This document shows positions 321 to 14,927 of a stretch of 28,606 bases of DNA, piece by piece. The notes under the pieces are model-generated. The model did no database searches and was not told where the DNA came from. It was given only the letters and a program-made list of their open reading frames with translations. A program made the translations under genes and the position numbers. Within the stretch, counting starts at the first letter, position 1; every line of letters starts with the position of its first letter. Source of the DNA: a virus; the IMG/VR virus record IMGVR_UViG_3300024923_000002, positions 1 to 28,606 of that record; one strand, given 5' to 3'.

Positions 321-634
321 AGAGACTGCCTAAGTTTGACTTGGCAATCCATTGTCAGTGTAGGATTAGCGCCTTCAGACAATTTAATCGAAATCGATAT
401 ACCGGTTAGCTTCGACCGGACAGGCGCTGACGCCGTAATGTAGGGCGAATCAACCAACTGCCCAAGCATCATACCCGGCCTAAATATAATCTCACCGCTA
501 TGCTCAGTGACGGCGTGGGCACTGGCATTCATCTCGGCACGGCCACGGACTATCAGCATATCGTCTGATAACAGTGGAGACACAATAGGCTGGCCAGTAC
601 GATCACCAGGGCCACGGTAAACTTCAACGTCCAT
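317..634 (-). CDS. Putative phage tail-associated protein, 105 aa
   Basis: The product is 105 residues, beta-rich, without signal peptide or transmembrane helix. The C-terminal half (YITASAPVRSKLTGISI and following) resembles small structural proteins I recall near tail-tip genes of Mu-like siphophages, but I cannot name the family. It shares its first base with the end of the upstream gene and overlaps the downstream gene by four bases. This tight packing marks it as part of the late operon. Function is inferred from position only. Confidence 0.6.
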   Translation of the reverse strand: MDVEVYRGPGDRTGQPIVSPLLSDDMLIVRGRAEMNASAHAVTEHSGEIIFRPGMMLGQLVDSPYITASAPVRSKLTGISISIKLSEGANPTLTMDCQVKLRQSL

Positions 635-1143
635 TACGCCGCCACCTCACCTTTAATTAGAACCAGGATGCTGAAATCCACCTCGCCGTTAACCGACATA
701 GGGGATGCCAGTGCGCCGATTGTAGCAGTGGCATTATAAGTAATGGATAACACACCAACCCCCATCGTTGGCACTGAAACGGTCTTGCCGTCGACACCGA
801 CAACAGGTGCTCCAAGATCTCGCCCCAGCCATTTGTACGACACAATACTATCAGCAGGTACATTGAGAGTGGCCGCAGCTACATCGGCAAAACTTAGCTC
901 ATCCGTATGTTGAACAGATACAGTGCCACCATAGCTAAAACTACCAGCCGAGGTTTGCGCTGGAACCAGTGCGACATTGGCCGATTTATAAACCAACACA
1001 TAAGCAATCGAGCCAGGGATAAATGAGCTTCTCCCTGAGTTTAATCCAGCTGCTCTTGAATCAACCTCTGCGGACAAATGCGCGTTTGCGGCCGCTGCTG
1101 CATCCGGATTAGTAAATTTTACCGTAATCGTTGCCGATGTCAT
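634..1143 (-). CDS. Putative tail protein, beta-rich, 169 aa
   Basis: The 169-residue product is rich in Ser, Thr, Val and Ala with regular alternation, suggesting an all-beta fold such as an Ig-like or fibre-associated domain. There is no signal peptide, and no catalytic motif is visible. It begins one base after the preceding tail-hub gene stops and ends on the first base of the next gene, so it belongs to the leftward late operon. A role in the distal tail or fibre is inferred from position. No family is recognised. Confidence 0.6.
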   Translation of the reverse strand: MTSATITVKFTNPDAAAAANAHLSAEVDSRAAGLNSGRSSFIPGSIAYVLVYKSANVALVPAQTSAGSFSYGGTVSVQHTDELSFADVAAATLNVPADSIVSYKWLGRDLGAPVVGVDGKTVSVPTMGVGVLSITYNATATIGALASPMSVNGEVDFSILVLIKGEVAA

Positions 1144-1144
1144 A

Positions 1145-2164
1145 TTATGCGTCTACCAATAAAAATTGAACTTCCTCAGCCAGCGCCAGGGACACATCCC
1201 AATCCGTTGTCTGCACCGTATAAGTTACGGCAGCTAGACTATAGCCGCCGTTTGATGCTGTGGCGCTTGTGCCATCGACAGTAATTATGCCTAAATCGGT
1301 ATGTTGCCAAACGTAACCGGTCAGCGCCAACGCCGGATATTTCAGCGTAGCCTTACCGTCGATAAACTCAATCACATCTGACTCAGTGCGAATAACCACA
1401 CCCTTGCTGACGATAACTGTTTCGGCCGCGCCGGTATGCACTAGACCGACGGCTCTTTGTGTTGACAAATACGCCCGGATTAAAGCCTTTTCCGGGTTAG
1501 TCTTATCAGCTATCCCCTCAAGCCGGTCAGCGTTGCCCGACTGCGCCACCGTAGAATTACTAATAATTACCCGGTTGAAGCCTTTAGCCGGTGCATCGAT
1601 AGAGCCGACCGTCACCCAATCATTATCAGTAAAATACTGATCGACCGCAGCCGTTGCATAATCCGGCACGTTGACAGGATCTCGTAACCGACAATTTATA
1701 TCGCCATTCGGAAAACTCTCGATCACCCCACCAACTGCTTCGACAATCGCCTTTGCAGCCTGCAGCGGCGTTACATTTGCCATTGATAGCGCACCGGCGG
1801 GAATTATCCAGGTTGGCAGGCTCCAGGTCACAACACTACTTAGAATGGCTTCTACCGCCGTACACGCATCAACCGCTCCTGCGTAATGGAATGTTTGCTC
1901 TGCCGCCCAAGGGGCATCCATAAAGCCCAACGGCGACATGGCGCTGATCGTGTAATCTTCTACGCCCGATTCCCGGTGAATGTTACGGCTGTCGACGCGT
2001 AATTTGTAAACCTCACCTAAGACTTCAAGCTCTATTGCGTCGCCCTTCAAGATACGCGCATAACTGGCCCGGTCCGCTAAGGTAAAATCGGCCAGCCAAA
2101 CCGATTGACCCTCATCACAGCTAACACGGGCGGACGTATAGCCCGTGGGGATTAAATTAGCCAT
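1145..2164 (-). CDS. Putative tail hub / tail-tip protein, 339 aa
   Basis: The N-terminal third (about residues 10-85) has the look of tail hub proteins of Mu-like siphophages, with a conserved-looking run around LADFTLADRASY and YTISAMSPLGFMDAPW. Such proteins close the distal end of the tail tube and organise the tip. The middle region (about 110-170) contains a helical segment ending in IVEAVGGVIESFPNGDI, reminiscent of gp27/gpD-type hubs. The gene starts inside the end of the upstream repeat-protein gene (8-base overlap). Family assignment is from pattern memory, so the hub role is probable rather than proven. Confidence 0.55.
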   Translation of the reverse strand: MANLIPTGYTSARVSCDEGQSVWLADFTLADRASYARILKGDAIELEVLGEVYKLRVDSRNIHRESGVEDYTISAMSPLGFMDAPWAAEQTFHYAGAVDACTAVEAILSSVVTWSLPTWIIPAGALSMANVTPLQAAKAIVEAVGGVIESFPNGDINCRLRDPVNVPDYATAAVDQYFTDNDWVTVGSIDAPAKGFNRVIISNSTVAQSGNADRLEGIADKTNPEKALIRAYLSTQRAVGLVHTGAAETVIVSKGVVIRTESDVIEFIDGKATLKYPALALTGYVWQHTDLGIITVDGTSATASNGGYSLAAVTYTVQTTDWDVSLALAEEVQFLLVDA

Positions 2165-2609
2165 GCGTTGTTCTCAAAGTGAAAGTACCCGTCTGCACAT
2201 GACCAGCCTGATCCTGTAACTGTCCGTAAACGATACTACAATGGGCCGACAGTTGAACGGGGGTATCTATAGCGTAGACGATACTGCGCCTGGCTGAAAT
2301 ATCAGTAATCCCGCCGTAGACAATACCGCAGCGGGCCGATAGCGTAGCGTAATCACTGTACACTATGCGGCATCGAGCCGACAACTCGACAACGGGCATG
2401 GAGCCACCAACAACCTCGCATCGGGTTTCGAGTAAATCCCCATGACTAACGCCACAGCGAGTTTCCAGTAAGTCACCGTAAGCAAAACCACAGCGAGTTT
2501 CGAGTAAATCACCGTAATCTACTCTACTCCTAGACGACAAGGGTGTCGTCGTTGGCGCTGATGAGCCATTGATAGCAACAGCATTGATCAAGTGGCCATT
2601 AATCAGCAT
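2157..2609 (-). CDS. Repeat protein with 12-14 residue ARC/TRC repeats, 150 aa
   Basis: After about 28 leader residues the protein is almost wholly short repeats. Three copies read as YGDLLETRCG variants and four diverged copies follow the pattern LSARCGIVYG, spaced 12-14 residues. The regular period, the near-invariant Arg-Cys and the Tyr-Gly turns suggest a solenoid or stacked beta structure. The first three repeats are nearly identical in DNA as well, so they were duplicated recently. It lies between a fibre-like gene (stop immediately before this start) and the hub gene (8-base overlap). A tail-tip or host-contact role is inferred from context only. No family is recognised. Confidence 0.6.
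   Translation of the reverse strand: MLINGHLINAVAINGSSAPTTTPLSSRSRVDYGDLLETRCGFAYGDLLETRCGVSHGDLLETRCEVVGGSMPVVELSARCRIVYSDYATLSARCGIVYGGITDISARRSIVYAIDTPVQLSAHCSIVYGQLQDQAGHVQTGTFTLRTTHG
2417..2524 (-). repeat. Three tandem 36-bp coding repeats
   Basis: Three 36-bp units with a common core (GCGAGTTTCGAGTAAATC on the plus strand, with variants) lie in tandem. Each encodes one 12-residue YGDLLETRCG-type repeat. The second and third units are closest, and the first is more diverged. Copy number could change by slippage or recombination. Confidence 0.75.
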
Positions 2610-3650
2610 TTAGAGGTGATCCGGCAGCTCAACAAAAAAACCGCGAACAAAAAACCTGCCAACACAGCGCCCGGTCGTTGATGCTGTCGTCAATGTGAAT
2701 CGTAACGACTCCGCATTAGTGACGGCAAGATTTACCGCCGGCGGCCATGTACAAAACTCGTTGGGGTTTGACACATCTACGACAGCATTACTGACGTATC
2801 TATCGACTTCTGCTGCGGTGCCTACTGATACATTAATTAAAGTTAAGGGACCCACAACGGCAATGTGGCTAATGAAACCAAATAATGTGGGCACAAAAAT
2901 AGACCCCGCTGGTGGGCTTTGCATAAAGTATCCCACTGAGGGATCTTGCTGTATCCATGTGATATCTTGATCGTAAATTACTTCCCCCCAAGTGGGTTCT
3001 GTCATCCCAGAGGCGCAAACTTGCTTACGTGTAAGAATGCTGGGGTTGTCCGGCATAACGGCTCTATACTGATACCCATCGGGGGTTGTTGGCTGCACAA
3101 TGGAGCCATGGGTATAATCCGCATCGGCTAACCACGTAGCAGGTATCCCCAAGTCAAAATAAGGGGAGCACATGACCGTTTCGGGGGCTTGACTATACAG
3201 CTCATCCGCATCGTTCCAATCGTCCATTTTTACACAGGGGAATGCGCCGATCATGATAGTCGACGCTATCCTGTTCGCGCCCGCATTCAACGATAGGGAA
3301 TCTGCAGCGATTGAACCTGACGTATCGATGCCGTGCCCGAATACGCTCAGCGCCCCTGCTGTAATGCGCATCTCTAATTTTGTGTCGGTAATCCAGGAGC
3401 GGGCAGCAGTGTCCTCGACATCGAACCCTCTTACTACTATCAAAGTCCCCGATGCCGTATCATTGCTATTTACACGTATTATTTCTACAGTTTCCGGGGT
3501 TTGCCCGTCAGTTAATGTCGCTAAAAAATATTGCCCGATTGAGGGGGTAGGAAACTGACTTGAATCCACTAAAACTATTGACGTATCGACGGGGGTAATG
3601 GCCCCGTCTAAATACCCCAATGCATTATTTTTAAATAATAGTGTATCCAT
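2610..3650 (-). CDS. Putative tail fibre or tip protein, 346 aa
   Basis: The N-terminal about 110 residues match the pattern of a domain common at the start of phage tail/fibre proteins. It has a short strand-rich segment that introduces a value, then a motif resembling VEIIRVNSND...TLIVVRGFD, followed by an Arg-rich turn. The C-terminal about 200 residues are aromatic and Pro-rich and may form a receptor-contact or jelly-roll-like domain. This is inference. The start codon overlaps the preceding stop (TAATG) and the stop abuts the repeat-protein start, showing coupled translation in the late operon. Confidence 0.55.
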   Translation of the reverse strand: MDTLLFKNNALGYLDGAITPVDTSIVLVDSSQFPTPSIGQYFLATLTDGQTPETVEIIRVNSNDTASGTLIVVRGFDVEDTAARSWITDTKLEMRITAGALSVFGHGIDTSGSIAADSLSLNAGANRIASTIMIGAFPCVKMDDWNDADELYSQAPETVMCSPYFDLGIPATWLADADYTHGSIVQPTTPDGYQYRAVMPDNPSILTRKQVCASGMTEPTWGEVIYDQDITWIQQDPSVGYFMQSPPAGSIFVPTLFGFISHIAVVGPLTLINVSVGTAAEVDRYVSNAVVDVSNPNEFCTWPPAVNLAVTNAESLRFTLTTASTTGRCVGRFFVRGFFVELPDHL

Positions 3651-4669
3651 TACGCGCTCTCTCCTCTAATAGCAATGCCACCCACATTATTTGCGAGCGT
3701 GCCGGTCCCGGCAGGGATGCGCTGCCGGATCAAGATAGGCAAACAGGCCTGCGTGGTATTAAACGTGATGGTGTCCCCCGCGGTGAAAGTGCCGCCCCAA
3801 GCAGACGATAAGATGCTAAAAAATGGCGTTGATGTTGATGGGTTACTAGCCGAGTAATCCGCCCCCACCGTGCCAGAGCTCGCCAGGCCCCCAGTGACCG
3901 CCCCTGATACCGAAAAGGTTGTAGCGTTACTAAATGTTAACGTCCACGCCTCGTTGACAGAACCCTTGCTGGGGACAGTAAGATTCCCCGTTATGCCGTA
4001 CGCCAGCGTCCCTGCTGCACTTGTCACGACGGCTGTATTGAAAGCACCGGCAACCTGGGCAACTTCAAGGACCCCACTGACAACCGTTGGTGTAGCCGCT
4101 AAATAGGCATTAGCCAGGGGGTGCCCTGTAAAGGTCAGTGTAGCGGTTGCGCCGGTAATCGATACCGCACTTAACGGCGCAAACTCCTCCGTACCCACCC
4201 CTCCGCCTACCGGTATGTTTGAGACGCGTATCATCATCCCGACACGGAACGGCAGCAATGTAGCGTAGTCGGCGTGTTCGCAGGCTACAGTGATGGACTC
4301 CGCCCCTGCTGATGCGTCACCAGCCAACACGCCGACCCCATACAATAGCGCTTCGTTCTTATCGGTTGCTTCCGTGCCTGTCGCTGTCGCCGCCTGGAAC
4401 AACAAGTAGTCATCCTGGTTAGTTTTTTGGTCCAGGTACACCCTGACGTTATTTACCAGCGTCACGGTGTTCGAATTAATAAACCAAAACAGCTTACGCC
4501 AGCGTGTGCCCCCCGATAATCTCTCGGCGACGCTGGAATCAGGGAATACGTTGTTCTTAACCCCGCTGACAGCCTGGGTATGCGCCATCCTGCCCCCATT
4601 TTGCGCGGGCACGGTATCAGAATTTAGGGTGGATCGATTGAGTATGAGATCTGTGCTGGCTAAGGCCAT
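3650..4669 (-). CDS. Conserved Mu-like siphophage tail protein, 339 aa
   Basis: The N-terminus includes GGRMAHTQAVSGVKNN followed by a SVAERLSGGTRWRKLFW-like stretch. I recognise this pattern from structural proteins encoded after the tape measure gene in Mu-like siphophages, although no functional name is established in my memory. The rest is Gly, Ala, Ser and Thr-rich and beta-like, ending in RGESA. It starts 13 bases after the preceding gene and its stop overlaps the next start by one base. A distal tail component is the most likely role. Confidence 0.6.
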   Translation of the reverse strand: MALASTDLILNRSTLNSDTVPAQNGGRMAHTQAVSGVKNNVFPDSSVAERLSGGTRWRKLFWFINSNTVTLVNNVRVYLDQKTNQDDYLLFQAATATGTEATDKNEALLYGVGVLAGDASAGAESITVACEHADYATLLPFRVGMMIRVSNIPVGGGVGTEEFAPLSAVSITGATATLTFTGHPLANAYLAATPTVVSGVLEVAQVAGAFNTAVVTSAAGTLAYGITGNLTVPSKGSVNEAWTLTFSNATTFSVSGAVTGGLASSGTVGADYSASNPSTSTPFFSILSSAWGGTFTAGDTITFNTTQACLPILIRQRIPAGTGTLANNVGGIAIRGESA

Positions 4670-5070: not shown

Positions 5071-7101
5071 TTAGAAATAGTACTTCATACGGTTATCGGG
5101 GTTATTCCCTACATCAGTGGGCGCTATGGCTCCAACATCTGCCAGATTTGATGGATTTAATTTAAATGGGTTCAGGTAGGTGCCAAACCGTACCTGATCG
5201 CCGATGCTAATAGAGGTAAAGAACGGGACATGCGGATCATAAGGAGGCACTGCCACAGCCATACTACATCTAGTGTTAAACACATTGCGCATACGGTCCT
5301 CATCTATTACAACACCAGTCGGAGAATAAAAAGTGTCAACCCACAGCTTACCCGAGTGGGAGTAAATATCAGTTATATCAATCAATAGGTGGTCGGTAAT
5401 CTGTAGTTCATCCAAGATACCTACAAACACATTTCCTTGCATCACGGGGTAGTACGGGCTTGAATTATAGATATAATAATTACTATTAGCCCATGAAGAC
5501 CCATCCGACAATGTCCCTGATGATCTGAAGATCCCTATCAGGAATGTGCCCGGTATAAGCGGGGAAATATAGTTACTGAGCGCATCTGGATCATCAACTG
5601 TAAAATACCCGTCAGGGAGAGGGGGAAAATCGTGTTGCCCGTAATTGAGCCCACCGCATGATTTAGCCATTGGCGTAAACCCGCTAGTTCCAGGGTACTC
5701 ATACTGGTTACTAATAGAGTAGGTTTTAATATTTCCGGTCATCGTCACCTCTTTCTCAGCTAAGTACCCAAGCGTCGTTACAGGCGCAGAGGGGGCAGTT
5801 ACCTGAACAGAAAATGCACCGGTGAATAGGCCTCGCACCACCCAGCTATAATACTTAGTGGTTGGGAGAATGTCCCCGCCAACACTGGTAGCTGCGGGTA
5901 ACCTAACCCACGCCCAAGGTACTGTGGTGCCTGACTGCGGGGAGGAAAGACGGACGACCACGCCAATATCGGTGGGTAGATAGTTGACCAACCTAAAGAC
6001 CGCTCTCGATACAGTAAAGGATAGCCAGTCAAAAGAACAGTCAATAAACAAATGCCCCAGAATATCCGGAGTGTAATAAAACGACTCATGCAACGATTTA
6101 AGACCTGGCGGCCCATAAGACGGAGGAACGCTGCCCATTGCATTAGCCGGTACCGTAAAATCGTAATCCACACCATCCACTCGCACTTGTTGCATCTTAT
6201 CGAGCAGCTTATACAGCGTACCAAATGCGTAGGCGGTAATAAAATGATACACATCTACCGTACCGCTGACATTACAACTTGCCTCTAGCCCAGGTAGCTC
6301 CACCGTTGCCTGGACATCAGAGAGAATGCCGTTATTGGACCCATTATCGTACTCAAATTCCTCTTGAATGACCTGCCCATCCGGTAAAACAACCCGACGC
6401 TGTAACGTGAACGAGAAGAAGGATTGAACTGCTGTAAAGTCGGCTATCAAGTTGTCCGGCGTTGTCGCGGACATACCTGCCGGCACATCAATATATTGAA
6501 CTAAATCAGCCGATATTGAGACCAAGTTTTCGGCGTCAACATTTATACTGGGTATCATTGGCAACGTCGTGTATGAGGGTAAGGTGTAGCCTCCGCCAGA
6601 TGGGTACGACATCACCCAGTTCGTAGCATAGTTGTAGCCCAATTGGATAGATCCCAGCCTATAAAACGCTTTCCAGTCCAGTACTTGATCTTGTTCGGTA
6701 GCCGCGGGACTGAACGGTACGCTCAGTTGCGCGGACGGTCCGGCGCTGACTGGGGTTATTCCTCCTGATGAGCTACCGCCGTCGAGTTTAGTCTGTACAA
6801 CCAGCTTAAAACTCGGTTCAACCACCGGCGCAAGGAAAGCTGATGCGCCACCGGCCATGCAGACAGCATAGGCTGATTGTGCGGCATTACTGATTGAGTT
6901 ACTGCGGCCAACCGTATACGCTTCGGCGTAGCCATTGATTAAACCGCCGCCTTGCTGTGCCCAGTAAGCCCGCTGTGCGATCGTAAACGGAGCAATCCAT
7001 GCTGTTTGCGGGTCTGAATCATACGCAGCCGTTGCCTTGGCGAAATCCTCGCCAAAGTCGCAGTGTTTGAAATTGATTAAAGCGGTGACTTGCTGAGCCA
7101 T
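5071..7101 (-). CDS. Large putative tail-tip protein, 676 aa
   Basis: This is the first gene after the tape measure, and its start overlaps the tape-measure stop (TAATG). The product is rich in Tyr, Ser, Gly and Pro with many aromatic beta-like stretches and no transmembrane helix or signal peptide. In siphophages this slot usually holds distal tail or tip proteins, and length and composition fit. Residues about 115-135 are Ser/Gly-rich and look like a linker. I do not recognise a named domain, so the role is inferred from position. Confidence 0.6.
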   Translation of the reverse strand: MAQQVTALINFKHCDFGEDFAKATAAYDSDPQTAWIAPFTIAQRAYWAQQGGGLINGYAEAYTVGRSNSISNAAQSAYAVCMAGGASAFLAPVVEPSFKLVVQTKLDGGSSSGGITPVSAGPSAQLSVPFSPAATEQDQVLDWKAFYRLGSIQLGYNYATNWVMSYPSGGGYTLPSYTTLPMIPSINVDAENLVSISADLVQYIDVPAGMSATTPDNLIADFTAVQSFFSFTLQRRVVLPDGQVIQEEFEYDNGSNNGILSDVQATVELPGLEASCNVSGTVDVYHFITAYAFGTLYKLLDKMQQVRVDGVDYDFTVPANAMGSVPPSYGPPGLKSLHESFYYTPDILGHLFIDCSFDWLSFTVSRAVFRLVNYLPTDIGVVVRLSSPQSGTTVPWAWVRLPAATSVGGDILPTTKYYSWVVRGLFTGAFSVQVTAPSAPVTTLGYLAEKEVTMTGNIKTYSISNQYEYPGTSGFTPMAKSCGGLNYGQHDFPPLPDGYFTVDDPDALSNYISPLIPGTFLIGIFRSSGTLSDGSSWANSNYYIYNSSPYYPVMQGNVFVGILDELQITDHLLIDITDIYSHSGKLWVDTFYSPTGVVIDEDRMRNVFNTRCSMAVAVPPYDPHVPFFTSISIGDQVRFGTYLNPFKLNPSNLADVGAIAPTDVGNNPDNRMKYYF

Positions 7102-10100
7102 TAGCTTGCCCGAGCCAAACTGCGCAGCTCTACAGCCAAATCGCGAGCTGCACTTCTTGAGCCTTGTAGCGTGACAGTTTTGCCGGCGAAGTTGAAATTC
7201 AGATCAACCACATCGCGCTGGTGTTCGGGCGACCGGCTGGTCGTCCCTACGGGCACGTTTGCTTCGCCTATGGGCCCGCCGATGGAATAGCCAGGCGCAA
7301 CCGGGAGCTGCTTGTTGTTCAGGGCATTCATAAAATTAACGCCATAATGCTGTACCGCTTCGGTTTTAACGACAAACTCGCCATTGCTAGCCATGACCGG
7401 TACATCGTCGGAGGTGCCGGTTCCGGGGCCGGTGATAGCTCCTACCATGCGCCGGAACAATACTTTGCCGCCAGTCGCCAAATGTTGAATTAATCCGCCA
7501 TTAGCGCGGTGCTGGATCGGTCCACCGGTGGCGTGTTGCTGAACCTCGTTGACGTAGACAGTGTGCGTGCTGAAGGTATTTCGTTTAATCTCATTGATGT
7601 CTCTAAAAACAGCCTCAAAATCAGGGTTGACGGTGTGGACGGCTTCGGTCGGTGCTGATAATTTGGCGTCGATATCGACCTTCATTGACTCTAACGAGGC
7701 AACCGCATCCGACGTATCCACACCCACCGGTACCGCCGTTAAAAACGCGATCGATTTACGCAATTCTTCCTGGATTTTTGCCAGATCCTCATCGCGCATC
7801 TTGTCGAACGCGACCACAGCCGGAACAGTGATCTTAGCCTCAGCCAGTTTGGCCTGCAGGGCGGCGATTTCGGCATCGGCATTAAGCGGATCCGCTTTGA
7901 TCTTGACCGTCAGCTCTTTAGCCGCTGTCAGTGCGGACAGCTTGTCCATTTCGACTTGCGCAGCAGTCGCATCGATCGATAACTTTACCTGAGCCTTGCT
8001 GTTTACATCCGCAATCGTCCTATCCAGTTCGCCTTTAAAATCGGCCAATCCTGACTTAGCGCCATCCAGCGATGCCGCGACGCTTTTTGCCTGCGCCAGC
8101 TGAGCATTACCCAGTCCTGACAGCGCGCTATCGGCCAGCGCCGCCGACTCCTTGATCTGCTCAATGGATTTAGCAATAGCAGTATTTTCGCTAATCGCCT
8201 CTTTACGCTGGGTTTTACCTTGCCCGTCTTTGGACACATTATCGACCGCATGAGCTGTGCTCTCGGCCAGACGTATTGCCTCATCTGCAAACTTTTTGGC
8301 ATCGGTAAAGTTGCCTTCCAAAATGGCTTTTTTTGCAGCGGCTTGTTTTTCGTCGATCTGTTTTTGCTGGTCGGCGTAGGCCTGTACGTCGCCCATGCCC
8401 TTTTGTTGCAATGCTCGGACTTTGTCTTCGACGCTGCGAGACAGGTTCTCGCGCTCTTCGGCAGTATGGCGAACGGCATCCAGTAATCGATGCTCCTCGC
8501 TGATCATGTTATCAACCGAGGACTGATAGGCGTTGACGACCGTTTGCAGACTGCCGATGCGCGCCTCAGCGCCTTGTTTTTCAAGCGCCGAAATATCACC
8601 ACCCGCCTGGCGTGCTAACTCGATCGCGCGGCCATAGGTTTCATCCCAGGTTTGATCCAACTGGATTTTGGTATTCAGGGCCGCGGCGGTTTTTTCAAAC
8701 TCGGCAGCAATGACCGCCTGGGTAGTTTCGGCTATTTTTTGTTTTTCGCTGGTGGCCAAGTAGTCGATCGCATAAAGACGGTCTTTTAGAGCGGCGTCGA
8801 TCTGTGTGCTTTGCACCTCGAATGCAGTAGTGATGGCCTTGGCTGCATCATCATAGGGCTTGACCATAGCTTCAGAGTGGGTAATTGCTGCGCCCTTCGC
8901 TTTGGTCAATGCCGCATCAATGCCTTCGGCCATACTGTTGGCGGATGTTTTCAACCGCTCAAATATAGTTGGTACCGGCGCAGTGTCGACCCGGCCTATA
9001 GCTGAACGAGTCTCTTCAAAACTCGCATTTATCTTATCTAATTCCGCCCAAAACTTTGCCCAATTTTCAAACGATGGATGAGCCAAAGCCTCACCCAACG
9101 CGACAATCTTAGCGATATTGTGGGCGGCATTCGCACCTGCGACCTGAACCCATTCAAACTGCGTTGCCCATTCGCCGATAGCGACGCCTATTTCACCCGC
9201 CGCGACCAACCAGCCGATATAAGGAATCGCCTTTAGTGCCTTTGAAAAAATTCCGACCCCAACAGCGGCCACCGCAGCAGCCTCGCCTTGTGCCAAAGTA
9301 GCGGCCGCTTGCGCCTCTTGCGCGGCGGCCAGCTCGGCATTAATCCGCGCATTACTGGCACTCAAAGCAGCCAAGTCTGTAAGGATAGCCGCGCGGGCGA
9401 TCTCAGCCGCTGTCAGGCTGGTAGTAGCTTGTGTTAGTAACCAGGTTGTAGTGGTGGTTTGAACGGTCGCCTCAAGAGCCGCTATGGTAGCGCGGGTCTG
9501 TGCTATAGAGGCATTGGTTGCCGCTAATTTAGCCAGCGCCTCGCCCCTGGCTAAAACGATGACCTCCTGAGTGGCGATTATCTCCGCCTCTCGGGCCGCT
9601 GTTGACGTAGCTATCGCCGCCGCTTCTGCACTTGCCGTAGCTACTGCCGTTGCCGCGGCCTCAGTCGCCGCTATGGTTGCGGCTCTTGCTGCAAACATGG
9701 ACTCGGTATAAAGGATCAGGCCTTTGAGCTTATTGGCACCGAACGCGACCAGCAGCACCTCACCGGCGCGGACGGCCAAGGTAACCAGACCGTCTAAATG
9801 ATCAGTGACAAAACCTATGCTGTCAGCAATGCCGTGCGTAGCCTCTGATGCATCTTTAGACTGACCGATGTATTTTAAAAACTGGTTTGTGAGTTTTTGC
9901 CAGGCGCCGGCAACAGTAAGCGGCAACTGCGCATATTCAGCGGCCAACACCTCTTTTTGCGATAGCAATGCAGCAATAACACGGTCTGAGGTTAACTCGC
10001 CCGCTGTGGCCATACTGCGTAATGCAGCGATAGGAACGCCAAGACCATCGGCCAGCGCCTGCGCGAGACGCGTGCCGTTTTCCATGACGGAATTAAATTC

Positions 10101-10595
10101 CTCACCGCGAAACACGCCACTGGCAATAGACTGGGTAAACTGCTGAATACCGCCGGATGACTCTGCCGCGGTAGCGCCGGATATCTTAAACGCCTGGGTA
10201 ACCGCCTCTGTAGCGTCGAACGCCTGCTTTTGCGTTCCACCCAGGCTTTTGATGCCGATCTGTAATTTTGTATACAGCCCAATGACTGTATCCAAAGCTG
10301 ACCGGGTGCGCTGAGCGATATTGAATAACTCGCCCTGGGCGGTGTTGAACTCTTGCTCTGATGAAGTGGCGAGTTTGATGCGCGCCGTTAAATTGGCGAA
10401 TTTGTCAGATAGGCCGACTAAATTTTCCAGCCCTTCTTTGATAGCGACAAAGCTGAATAGCCCGATCATCAACGTCTTAACGCGATCGATCTCTTGGCCA
10501 ATGCCGCCGATACGTTGACGAGCGGTATCTATCCCACGGCTGGCTTCGTCTTGCAGCCTTAGTATGATCTTAGCAACGAGTGAAGTGTCAGCCAT
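7101..10595 (-). CDS. Phage tail tape measure protein, 1164 aa
   Basis: The longest gene in the window encodes the protein that sets tail length and is threaded through the tail tube. The N-terminal about 250 residues fit the tape-measure domain seen in Mu-like and siphovirus proteins, including a segment of the form GGIQQFTQSIASGVFRGEEF followed by ALADGLGVPIAALR. Residues about 300-440 are extremely Ala-rich helical heptads. A hydrophobic stretch at about 460-490 may be a membrane-interacting helix. Long coiled coil follows to about 990, and a Gly/His-rich C-terminal part contains ATGGPIQHRANGGLIQ-type repeats. It sits after the tail tube gene, as expected. Confidence 0.92.
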   Translation of the reverse strand: MADTSLVAKIILRLQDEASRGIDTARQRIGGIGQEIDRVKTLMIGLFSFVAIKEGLENLVGLSDKFANLTARIKLATSSEQEFNTAQGELFNIAQRTRSALDTVIGLYTKLQIGIKSLGGTQKQAFDATEAVTQAFKISGATAAESSGGIQQFTQSIASGVFRGEEFNSVMENGTRLAQALADGLGVPIAALRSMATAGELTSDRVIAALLSQKEVLAAEYAQLPLTVAGAWQKLTNQFLKYIGQSKDASEATHGIADSIGFVTDHLDGLVTLAVRAGEVLLVAFGANKLKGLILYTESMFAARAATIAATEAAATAVATASAEAAAIATSTAAREAEIIATQEVIVLARGEALAKLAATNASIAQTRATIAALEATVQTTTTTWLLTQATTSLTAAEIARAAILTDLAALSASNARINAELAAAQEAQAAATLAQGEAAAVAAVGVGIFSKALKAIPYIGWLVAAGEIGVAIGEWATQFEWVQVAGANAAHNIAKIVALGEALAHPSFENWAKFWAELDKINASFEETRSAIGRVDTAPVPTIFERLKTSANSMAEGIDAALTKAKGAAITHSEAMVKPYDDAAKAITTAFEVQSTQIDAALKDRLYAIDYLATSEKQKIAETTQAVIAAEFEKTAAALNTKIQLDQTWDETYGRAIELARQAGGDISALEKQGAEARIGSLQTVVNAYQSSVDNMISEEHRLLDAVRHTAEERENLSRSVEDKVRALQQKGMGDVQAYADQQKQIDEKQAAAKKAILEGNFTDAKKFADEAIRLAESTAHAVDNVSKDGQGKTQRKEAISENTAIAKSIEQIKESAALADSALSGLGNAQLAQAKSVAASLDGAKSGLADFKGELDRTIADVNSKAQVKLSIDATAAQVEMDKLSALTAAKELTVKIKADPLNADAEIAALQAKLAEAKITVPAVVAFDKMRDEDLAKIQEELRKSIAFLTAVPVGVDTSDAVASLESMKVDIDAKLSAPTEAVHTVNPDFEAVFRDINEIKRNTFSTHTVYVNEVQQHATGGPIQHRANGGLIQHLATGGKVLFRRMVGAITGPGTGTSDDVPVMASNGEFVVKTEAVQHYGVNFMNALNNKQLPVAPGYSIGGPIGEANVPVGTTSRSPEHQRDVVDLNFNFAGKTVTLQGSRSAARDLAVELRSLARAS

Positions 10596-12685: not shown

Positions 12686-13750
12686 TCAATTAAATTGCAT
12701 GTGATCGCATGCGGCTCGCAAGCCGTAGCCCCAGCTAGATGTCGACGGTAGGCTGCTCCATACCGACGTTCGAGATCCGCAGTTGGCGCCTCCCGAACGC
12801 ACGCCGCCCAACACGACACGCGTGTTACTGTTGTTGAATATCTGACCACGCCCACCATTGCTGGCCCACGCAAACGCCGCTGCCGCTTGGGTGCCTGTAT
12901 TGCTGCCCCACACATGGATGTGCCCGCTTGCTTGTTCCACACCGTATTTGCTGGTAAATCCAGCATTACGCCGCGTTGTCGGATATGTTGCGTTGGTCGA
13001 GTCAATCGATTGGTTTTCGGTCACGCCAAAAGCTGCGGTAACAAACTCGCTCTCTAGCAGTAGACGCTTACCGTGCGCTCTGGCAAGTTCGTTCGCCACC
13101 CACCAATTTAGCGACGCATAAGTGGCGGTGCCATCGCCGCCAAACACAGCCGGTATTTTCGGTAGCACAGTACCAGATGCCATATTCGATCCAGCGGCAC
13201 TGGTGCCGTTGGCATCTGTGTCGCTGTTGCACAGATATATATCTACCCAGACGTTATTAGCCAGCGTCATACCTTTCGCGCTGCCGGCTATAGGCCTAAA
13301 TTTTGCGTCGTAAATGCTGTATTGATTGATCCCGGCAATCCGGTCAACATCCGCTTGCGTCCATATCATGCCGTCACCGGATGTCGTAAATAATCCGCCT
13401 GCGACCGTTTCTCCAACCGCAACCAGTCCGTGGTGGAACCCGCCGATTAAACGACTATTGTTCGTCGTGTATCCGGTCGGGCTAGTAAAATTAGAGTCCG
13501 CCCTGACACTACCGTCAGAGCACACATAGATAGCGTAATCGATGCCACCGTTAAGCGCGGGCATAACGACAGCGGTGTCGGCCCTAAATTTAACCAGATC
13601 ATTCCCAACAGCCAGCCATGTGTCCGCTTTTATGCTCAATGCGCCCGCGGCGGTTTTGGTGAAAACAGGGCTAAATGAGTCCGCCTTATCAAACACCAGA
13701 CGACTATTGGCCTGGCGACCGCTCGCGCTCGTCAATATAGTCACACCCAT
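12686..13750 (-). CDS. C-type-lectin-fold receptor-binding protein, DGR-target type, about 354 aa
   Basis: I place the start at 13750 (sequence MGVTILTSASGRQ), because the longer frame to 13828 would overlap the upstream gene. The C-terminal about 110 residues carry hallmarks of the formylglycine-generating-enzyme/C-type-lectin fold used by diversity-generating retroelement targets: WWVANELARAHGKRLL, then GGRGQIFNN, then the final block LGGxxxGG..GSR..W...PS.S.G.R..CDHM. In such proteins (Mtd of Bordetella phage is the classic case) the last block is the variable ligand-binding surface. Residues 1-200 are probably a virion-attachment or beta domain. A chaperone-like gene follows. No reverse transcriptase, Avd or template repeat is recognisable in this window. 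Confidence 0.72.
   Translation of the reverse strand: MGVTILTSASGRQANSRLVFDKADSFSPVFTKTAAGALSIKADTWLAVGNDLVKFRADTAVVMPALNGGIDYAIYVCSDGSVRADSNFTSPTGYTTNNSRLIGGFHHGLVAVGETVAGGLFTTSGDGMIWTQADVDRIAGINQYSIYDAKFRPIAGSAKGMTLANNVWVDIYLCNSDTDANGTSAAGSNMASGTVLPKIPAVFGGDGTATYASLNWWVANELARAHGKRLLLESEFVTAAFGVTENQSIDSTNATYPTTRRNAGFTSKYGVEQASGHIHVWGSNTGTQAAAAFAWASNGGRGQIFNNSNTRVVLGGVRSGGANCGSRTSVWSSLPSTSSWGYGLRAACDHMQFN
12689..12811 (-). other. Variable-region-like 3' end of the lectin gene
   Basis: This 41-codon segment encodes LGGVRSGGANCGSR, then TSVWSSLPSTSSWGYG, then LRAACDHMQFN. Framework positions (LGG, GSR, W, PS, G-x-R, CDH) match DGR variable regions I know, and the residues between them are where adenine-directed variation normally falls. 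No second, adenine-rich copy (template repeat) of this segment was found on either strand of the window. Confidence 0.55.
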
Positions 13751-13752
13751 CG

Positions 13753-14100
13753 CTATGCCCCTAACGTTACAGTGACCGCCGCCGAAGCGCCGGAAATAGC
13801 CGTCAATTTGGCATACATGTAAGGCCACTCGGCGCTAATGTAGTCGCCCGCGCTGTCAGACGCCGTTCCAGATAGAGCCATCGTAAGCAGTAGCGCGCCG
13901 CCGCTAGAAAATGAATTGTTTGAGCCGTATACCTCAACTGTCGCCGTCACAACGCCGGTGCCGCTTACGACCGACTGAATCGTGCGTCCTCCGGCACCGA
14001 CAGCAACAAGCTCCCCTGTCTGCGGCGCATTTGCCGCGTCAAGCATCTTGACGACCGTTTTGCGCCGCTCGGCCTTAATGTCATAAGCGAGATGTGTCAT
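13753..14100 (-). CDS. Small head/late protein, 115 aa
   Basis: The 115-residue product is beta-rich and Gly/Ala/Ser-rich, ending in an AEWPYMYAKLTAISG-type segment followed by VTVTLGA. This ending recurs in phage structural proteins I have seen, without an assigned role. It begins eight bases after the gp36-like gene and ends two bases before the lectin start. It may be a small capsid-decoration or attachment protein. The function is unknown. Confidence 0.6.
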   Translation of the reverse strand: MTHLAYDIKAERRKTVVKMLDAANAPQTGELVAVGAGGRTIQSVVSGTGVVTATVEVYGSNNSFSSGGALLLTMALSGTASDSAGDYISAEWPYMYAKLTAISGASAAVTVTLGA

Positions 14101-14627: not shown

Positions 14628-14927
14628 TTATTTCTTTCTGGCTTTTGCTGTGGAATTGTCACCGGCATCAAGTTCGTTACCGGTATCGGCTTTGTCACCT
14701 GCATCAGGTTCGTTACCGGTATCGACTTTGTCACCGGCATCAGGTTCGTTACCGCTATCGGTTTTATCAACGCCTACCATACCCGCAACAATAACCCCGG
14801 CCGCTAGAAGCTGCTCAAGCTGCTGTTCGGTAAAATCTTCAGCATCCAACTCATCACCGGGCTCATAATTAACGCCGTCATGGCATATATTATCCAGCGC
14901 CACCCAACCCGCTATTTGGGTGCTCAT
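14628..14927 (-). CDS. Gp35-like protein with acidic repeat tail, 99 aa
   Basis: Residues 1-50 resemble the small N-terminal domain of Mu gp35-like proteins (HI1506/FluMu type), with GVNYEPGDELDAEDFTEQQLEQLLAAGVI. Residues 55-90 are three copies of a 12-residue acidic unit KxDTGNEPDAGD, and a basic STAKARKK tail follows. It starts with a four-base overlap on the end of the major capsid gene, so its translation is coupled. A head-associated role is likely. The repeat tail is not part of the family core and has probably expanded recently. Confidence 0.7.
   Translation of the reverse strand: MSTQIAGWVALDNICHDGVNYEPGDELDAEDFTEQQLEQLLAAGVIVAGMVGVDKTDSGNEPDAGDKVDTGNEPDAGDKADTGNELDAGDNSTAKARKK
14658..14765 (-). 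repeat. Three tandem 36-bp coding repeats
   Basis: Three in-frame 36-bp units encode KTDSGNEPDAGD, KVDTGNEPDAGD and KADTGNELDAGD. The plus strand shows the alternation CATCAGGTTCGTTACCGGTA and variants. The units are nearly identical, so copy number may vary by slippage. Confidence 0.85.

Follow-up and report, generated by a model that had tools for sequence, protein, structure and literature searches.

A tandem-repeat protein encoded beside a phage tail hub gene as a candidate arm joining adhesins to the hub

The window analysed here is the whole 28,606-nucleotide stretch of the viral record IMGVR_UViG_3300024923_000002. Open reading frame 2157–2609, on the minus strand, encodes a repeat protein of 150 residues and is part of a series of genes on the same strand. 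The order on that strand is tape measure protein, a 676-residue protein, a 126-residue protein, the products of 3650–4669 and 2610–3650, the repeat protein, the tail hub protein and three small genes. The repeat protein is called the arm below, after the role that we propose for it. The features of the locus are as follows.

7101–10595, minus strand: tape measure protein, from its PHROG match
3650–4669, minus strand: conserved protein of 339 residues, upstream of the arm in the window-type relatives L004 and L019 (phrog_6128/9261/24675)
2610–3650, minus strand: tail-fibre-like protein of 346 residues, with which the arm may pair (its residues 6–112 match phrog_8469 'tail fiber protein' at E 5e-10)
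2157–2609, minus strand: tandem-repeat protein of 150 residues, the putative arm (open reading frame list, self-similarity and relatives)
2157–2164, minus strand: 8-base overlap ATGGCTAA of the arm stop and the hub start, which L004 and L019 also have
1145–2164, minus strand: tail hub protein of 339 residues, the first 165 or so of which are predicted to adopt a gp27/Mu gp44-type fold (AlphaFold, fold matches and PHROG tail protein)
634–1143, minus strand: conserved gene after the hub (phrog_24905), which aligns with L004 and with Vibrio phages

The 676-residue protein (5071–7101, minus strand), which lies between the tape measure and fibre genes, gave no PHROG match and only one sub-cut-off match in Pfam.

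An AlphaFold model of the 1145–2164 product, based on an alignment of 12 sequences, had a pLDDT of 74.7. The model superimposed on Mu gp44 (1wru) with a Z score of 13.0 and an rmsd of 2.2 A over 157 residues (model residues 1 to 190), and the same structure was also among its Foldseek matches. Fold matches lay mainly in residues 1–209, with residues 163–211 modelled at a pLDDT under 50. By its predicted fold the protein is a hub of the gp27/Mu gp44 type, and its PHROG families were phrog_24698/6079. The gene order of JBD30 had prompted assignment of this product as a distal tail protein; this candidate was rejected, as the model matched hubs instead.

The arm contains eight tandem units of 12–16 residues that span residues 24–130, with spacings of 12, 12, 12, 16, 14, 14 and 16 residues. 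Its N-terminal head was identified by alignment with L019, and the units were located with a PSSM built from L019 units only.

2565–2609, minus strand: N-terminal head MLINGHLINAVAING, common to L019 (MLINGAAINGVSING)
2508–2540, minus strand: repeat unit 1, LSSRSRVDYGD, which has no Cys
2472–2504, minus strand: repeat unit 2, LETRCGFAYGD, with a DNA copy at 2491–2513
2436–2468, minus strand: repeat unit 3, LETRCGVSHGD, with a DNA copy at 2455–2477
2400–2432, minus strand: repeat unit 4, LETRCEVVGGS, with a DNA copy at 2419–2441
2352–2384, minus strand: repeat unit 5, LSARCRIVYSD
2310–2342, minus strand: repeat unit 6, LSARCGIVYGG
2268–2300, minus strand: repeat unit 7, ISARRSIVYAI, in which Cys is replaced by Arg
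2220–2252, minus strand: repeat unit 8, LSAHCSIVYGQ, in which Arg is replaced by His

The self-alignment score of the arm was 113, whereas 500 shuffles averaged about 25 and did not exceed 46, indicating that the repeats are real. An earlier note made from the sequence alone had counted at least seven repeats of 12–14 residues; the tandem array stands, with the number raised to eight and the upper length to 16. That note had also described a near-invariant Arg-Cys pair, which overstates the pattern. Column 4 of the unit is Arg in seven of the eight units and column 5 is Cys in six, the other two being Ser and Arg, but the dipeptide itself is found in just five. At the DNA level, three near-identical 36-bp repeats had been reported. 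We found identities of 31/36, 25/36 and 24/36, so that two of the copies are close to identical and the third is less similar; the 23-nt core of the copies is 78–87% identical. A recent duplication within the window arm is at best weakly indicated.

Searches with the arm gave no family at E ≤ 1 in Pfam or PHROG, nothing but one sub-cut-off match in NCBIfam, and a single match among PDB sequences (E 0.06). Neither the window arm nor the L004 arm matched phage records, and the window array was absent from the TRF list at a score of 30. Within this limited search the arm has no name in the Pfam, PHROG and NCBIfam libraries, and a limited open-access search of the literature found no description of a repeat arm of this kind. 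An AlphaFold model of the arm, made from three sequences, had a pLDDT of 39 and contained one strand per unit.

Relatives at the same locus were compared with the window. In L004, L005 and L006 the hub is 85% identical to that of the window, and the repeat units are carried by a 477-residue protein composed of a Laminin_G_3 domain (residues 56–200, Pfam E 3e-20), a linker and nine units. The Laminin_G domain is present only in these L004-type relatives, the window arm having no such match in Pfam. L019 has a hub that is 71% identical and a free-standing arm of 171 residues with nine units. In the window, L004 and L019 the arm and hub are separate open reading frames that overlap by the eight bases, not one chain. 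The arm shares 37% identity with its counterparts in L004 and in L019, while identity is 71–85% for the hub, 72% (L004) and 74% (L019) for the 3650–4669 product, and 77–91% for the two genes after the hub in comparison with L004. Of the genes compared, that of the arm diverges fastest (37% versus 71–91%). Two scans of genome contigs confirmed no relatives, and viral contigs rescanned with the L019 hub and arm yielded L019's own contig only.

A tblastn search with the hub matched 46 phage records, 32 from Vibrio and 14 from Pseudomonas, from which ten (nine Vibrio and one Pseudomonas) were examined. All nine Vibrio records contained an extra N-terminal stretch within the hub polypeptide, and in six of them this stretch consists of five units with spacings of 15, 14, 14 and 16 residues. 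The spacings in the L016 arm were 15, 28 and 16, and no clear unit array was found in the arms of the Vibrio records L009 and L010. The Vibrio SIO-2-like siphophages (for example vB_VcaS_HC and HC033; phrog_24698, hub of about 430 residues) have the same gene position as the window, a homologous hub (25–28% identity), and tandem units with final spacings of 14, 14 and 16; they differ from the window in having five units with Phe/Tyr columns, no Cys column and an arm fused to the hub. L022 encodes one protein of 673 residues with at least 16 units ahead of the hub. In L032, ten G-V/I-D-L-P units precede the hub, spaced by 14, 16, 12, 14, 16, 12, 14, 14 and 16 residues. The final spacings of 14, 14 and 16 before the hub are common to the window, L004, L019, L032 and six Vibrio arms. 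Spacings were even in 7/7 cases in the window, 8/8 in L004, 8/8 in L019 and 12/15 in L022, with steps mostly of two residues.

Self-repetition was scored for 17 arms. Fourteen beat all 100 shuffles, narrowly in the case of L014 and L010, and the remaining three (L025, L016 and L009) did not. An offset of 14 residues ranked first in nine of the 17 arms, and in 16 it was one of the four highest. For L023 and L031, the self-score of the arm lay above those of the shuffles, with no clear match to the L019 or L022 matrix. The hub protein of L031 (2480–5425, 982 residues) carries several different repeat blocks before its hub domain and had no Pfam match. The hub homologues of L009, L010 and L011 are annotated as 'LamG domain-containing protein'; as the L007 hub homologue has no LamG match in Pfam, this name may be wrong.

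The L019-only matrix recognised eight units in the window, nine in L004 and nine in L022, a result reached by none of 300 shuffles. It gave four matches in 6179 residues of 17 other open reading frames of the window, and none in eight of the nine Vibrio arms. The matrix built from L022 recognised 13–23 units per protein in the tail proteins of five Aeromonas phages, counts that none of 200 shuffles reached. The window arm had no match with either the L022 matrix or an Aeromonas matrix, and therefore the link between the window and the Aeromonas phages runs only through L019 and L022. Convergence of short units can also give rise to unit likeness.

The Aeromonas phages are Chi-like Casjensviridae, and their 14-residue units (QAELLAPYNLRSSV) lie at the C-terminus of a tail protein of 1396–1526 residues that adjoins a further gene of about 460 residues. 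We counted 20 units in BUCT552, 15 in PhAER-6, 25 in vB_C4, 16 in phiA034 and 19 in BUCT551, after removal, in BUCT552 and PhAER-6 alike, of a single spurious match that lay 5 residues from its predecessor. In contrast to the window, the units are C-terminal on a different tip protein, are 15–25 in number and are without Cys. The BUCT552 arm had no match among PDB sequences. In the same five phages (L033–L037), aligned columns 700–1400 before the arm are 65–92% identical with 15–25 units following, and the vB_C4 arm contains many near-identical unit copies.

Copy-number variation, which the earlier note had expected, was thus found between relatives: eight units in the window, nine in L004, nine in L019, five in six of the nine Vibrio phages, at least 16 in L022 and 15–25 in the Aeromonas phages. 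It was not found among near-identical sequences; L004, L005 and L006 are mutually identical at the repeat-protein DNA, and contig 3300004261_000007, which shares 8164 identical bases with the window, added no variation.

The hub neighbour, the hub fusions of the Vibrio phages and L022, and the LamG fusion of L004 bear out the tail-tip location and the link to host contact that had been proposed for the protein. The same observations make it most likely that the protein is a fast-evolving arm split off from the N-terminus of the hub, and the fusions to both hub and LamG place it between adhesin-type parts and the hub. We therefore favour, with moderate confidence, the interpretation that the repeat protein acts as the N-terminal arm of the tail hub in free-standing form and joins adhesins to it. 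The arm would then consist of eight short units in a chain, each comprising an amphipathic, beta-strand-like L-x-A/T-R-C-x-I/V-x-Y segment and a turn. Because small or hydrophobic columns alternate along the unit, each unit presumably forms one strand. On one side the arm would adjoin the hub and on the other the variable adhesins, namely the fibre-like 2610–3650 product in the window and the LamG domain in L004; each or several of its units may dock fibre subunits. Its product is probably present in the virion, and the number of units might tune how many adhesins are carried or how long the arm is.

The nearest structural parallel is gp49, the distal tail protein of JBD30, whose extended N-terminal domain I is reported to form a loop that wraps around the tail fibres (PMC11445458). 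Its gene, too, follows those of the fibres. However, the JBD5 homologue of gp49 (JBD5_052) belongs to phrog_1082 and the window neighbour to phrog_24698/6079, and the N-terminus of the JBD5 homologue is not repetitive (self-score of 32, shuffle maximum of 38). Because of the different family and the absence of repeats, the comparison is an analogy only. The fibre genes upstream in L025 and L032 were considered as homologues of JBD30 gp47/gp48 and set aside, the matches being too weak (E 0.002 in a single comparison of L025 with JBD5_051, and E 0.17 for L032 against L025).

An alternative that we regard as unlikely is that the repeats fold on their own into a rigid beta-solenoid or beta-meander spike, itself the fibre or a spacer, with no partner docked along its length. 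Such a spike would fit the strand in each unit of the low-confidence arm model and the regular 12–16 residue units with one hydrophobic face, but the confidence of this model is too low for use and no sequence match in Pfam, PHROG or the PDB connects the arm to a known repeat fold. The two-residue steps in unit length are compatible with a spike and with docking alike.

It is less likely still that the arm is itself the receptor-binding protein, with repeats that touch the host and duplications that shift host range. Although the rapid divergence of the arm and the range of 15–25 units among the Aeromonas phages could be read in this way, L004 has a lectin-type LamG domain on the far end of its arm and a fibre-like gene adjoins the arm gene in both the window and L019, so that another part is available for binding. 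The identity of the repeat DNA in L004, L005 and L006 also argues against this possibility.

The suggestion that the periodic cysteines are metal ligands, or disulfides that harden a fibre, is highly improbable: all six Cys of the 150-residue arm lie in one unit column that is also Cys in six of nine L004 units, but this column lacks Cys in 2/8 window units, is Ile, Val or Leu in the other 3/9 L004 units, Phe or Tyr in 9/9 L019 units and Phe or Leu in 16/16 L022 units, and there is no Cys at all in the five Aeromonas arms. Cys is thus not kept in every unit (6/8 in the window, 6/9 in L004, 0/9 in L019 and 0/16 in L022), and since L019 has an aromatic residue throughout, a metal-binding or cross-linking role is no feature of the family. 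The regular Cys appears replaceable in relatives and, on this comparison of sequences, a metal site is probably not present. Relatives have Phe, Tyr, Leu, Val or Ile in this column, and as these residues are aromatic or aliphatic we read it as a buried position. A metal or cross-link role for the cysteines, a plausible but weak lead, is thereby removed.

Returning to the arm that joins adhesins to the hub, a much bolder extension, which we consider doubtful, is that it belongs to a widespread modular 14-residue 'bead-string' that occurs free-standing, as an N-terminal hub arm or as a C-terminal arm of a tip protein, with one adhesin subunit docked per unit and the unit number setting adhesin copies or arm length. 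If the favoured interpretation of a joining arm is right, it would account for the attachment of variable adhesins to a conserved hub across several groups of phages, would provide a sequence mark for adhesin genes in poorly annotated phages, and would make unit number a testable dial of side-fibre length or valency.

Two other features of the window were observed. The 380-residue product of 12686–13828 (minus strand) matched the Pfam 'Mtd second domain' (E 9e-21), resembling a target of a diversity-generating retroelement; no template repeat corresponding to its C-terminus turned up in the window. A 36-bp tandem array of 3.2 copies with 89% matches is present at 14656–14769, inside a 99-residue open reading frame (14628–14927, minus strand) with PDAGDK-type repeats.
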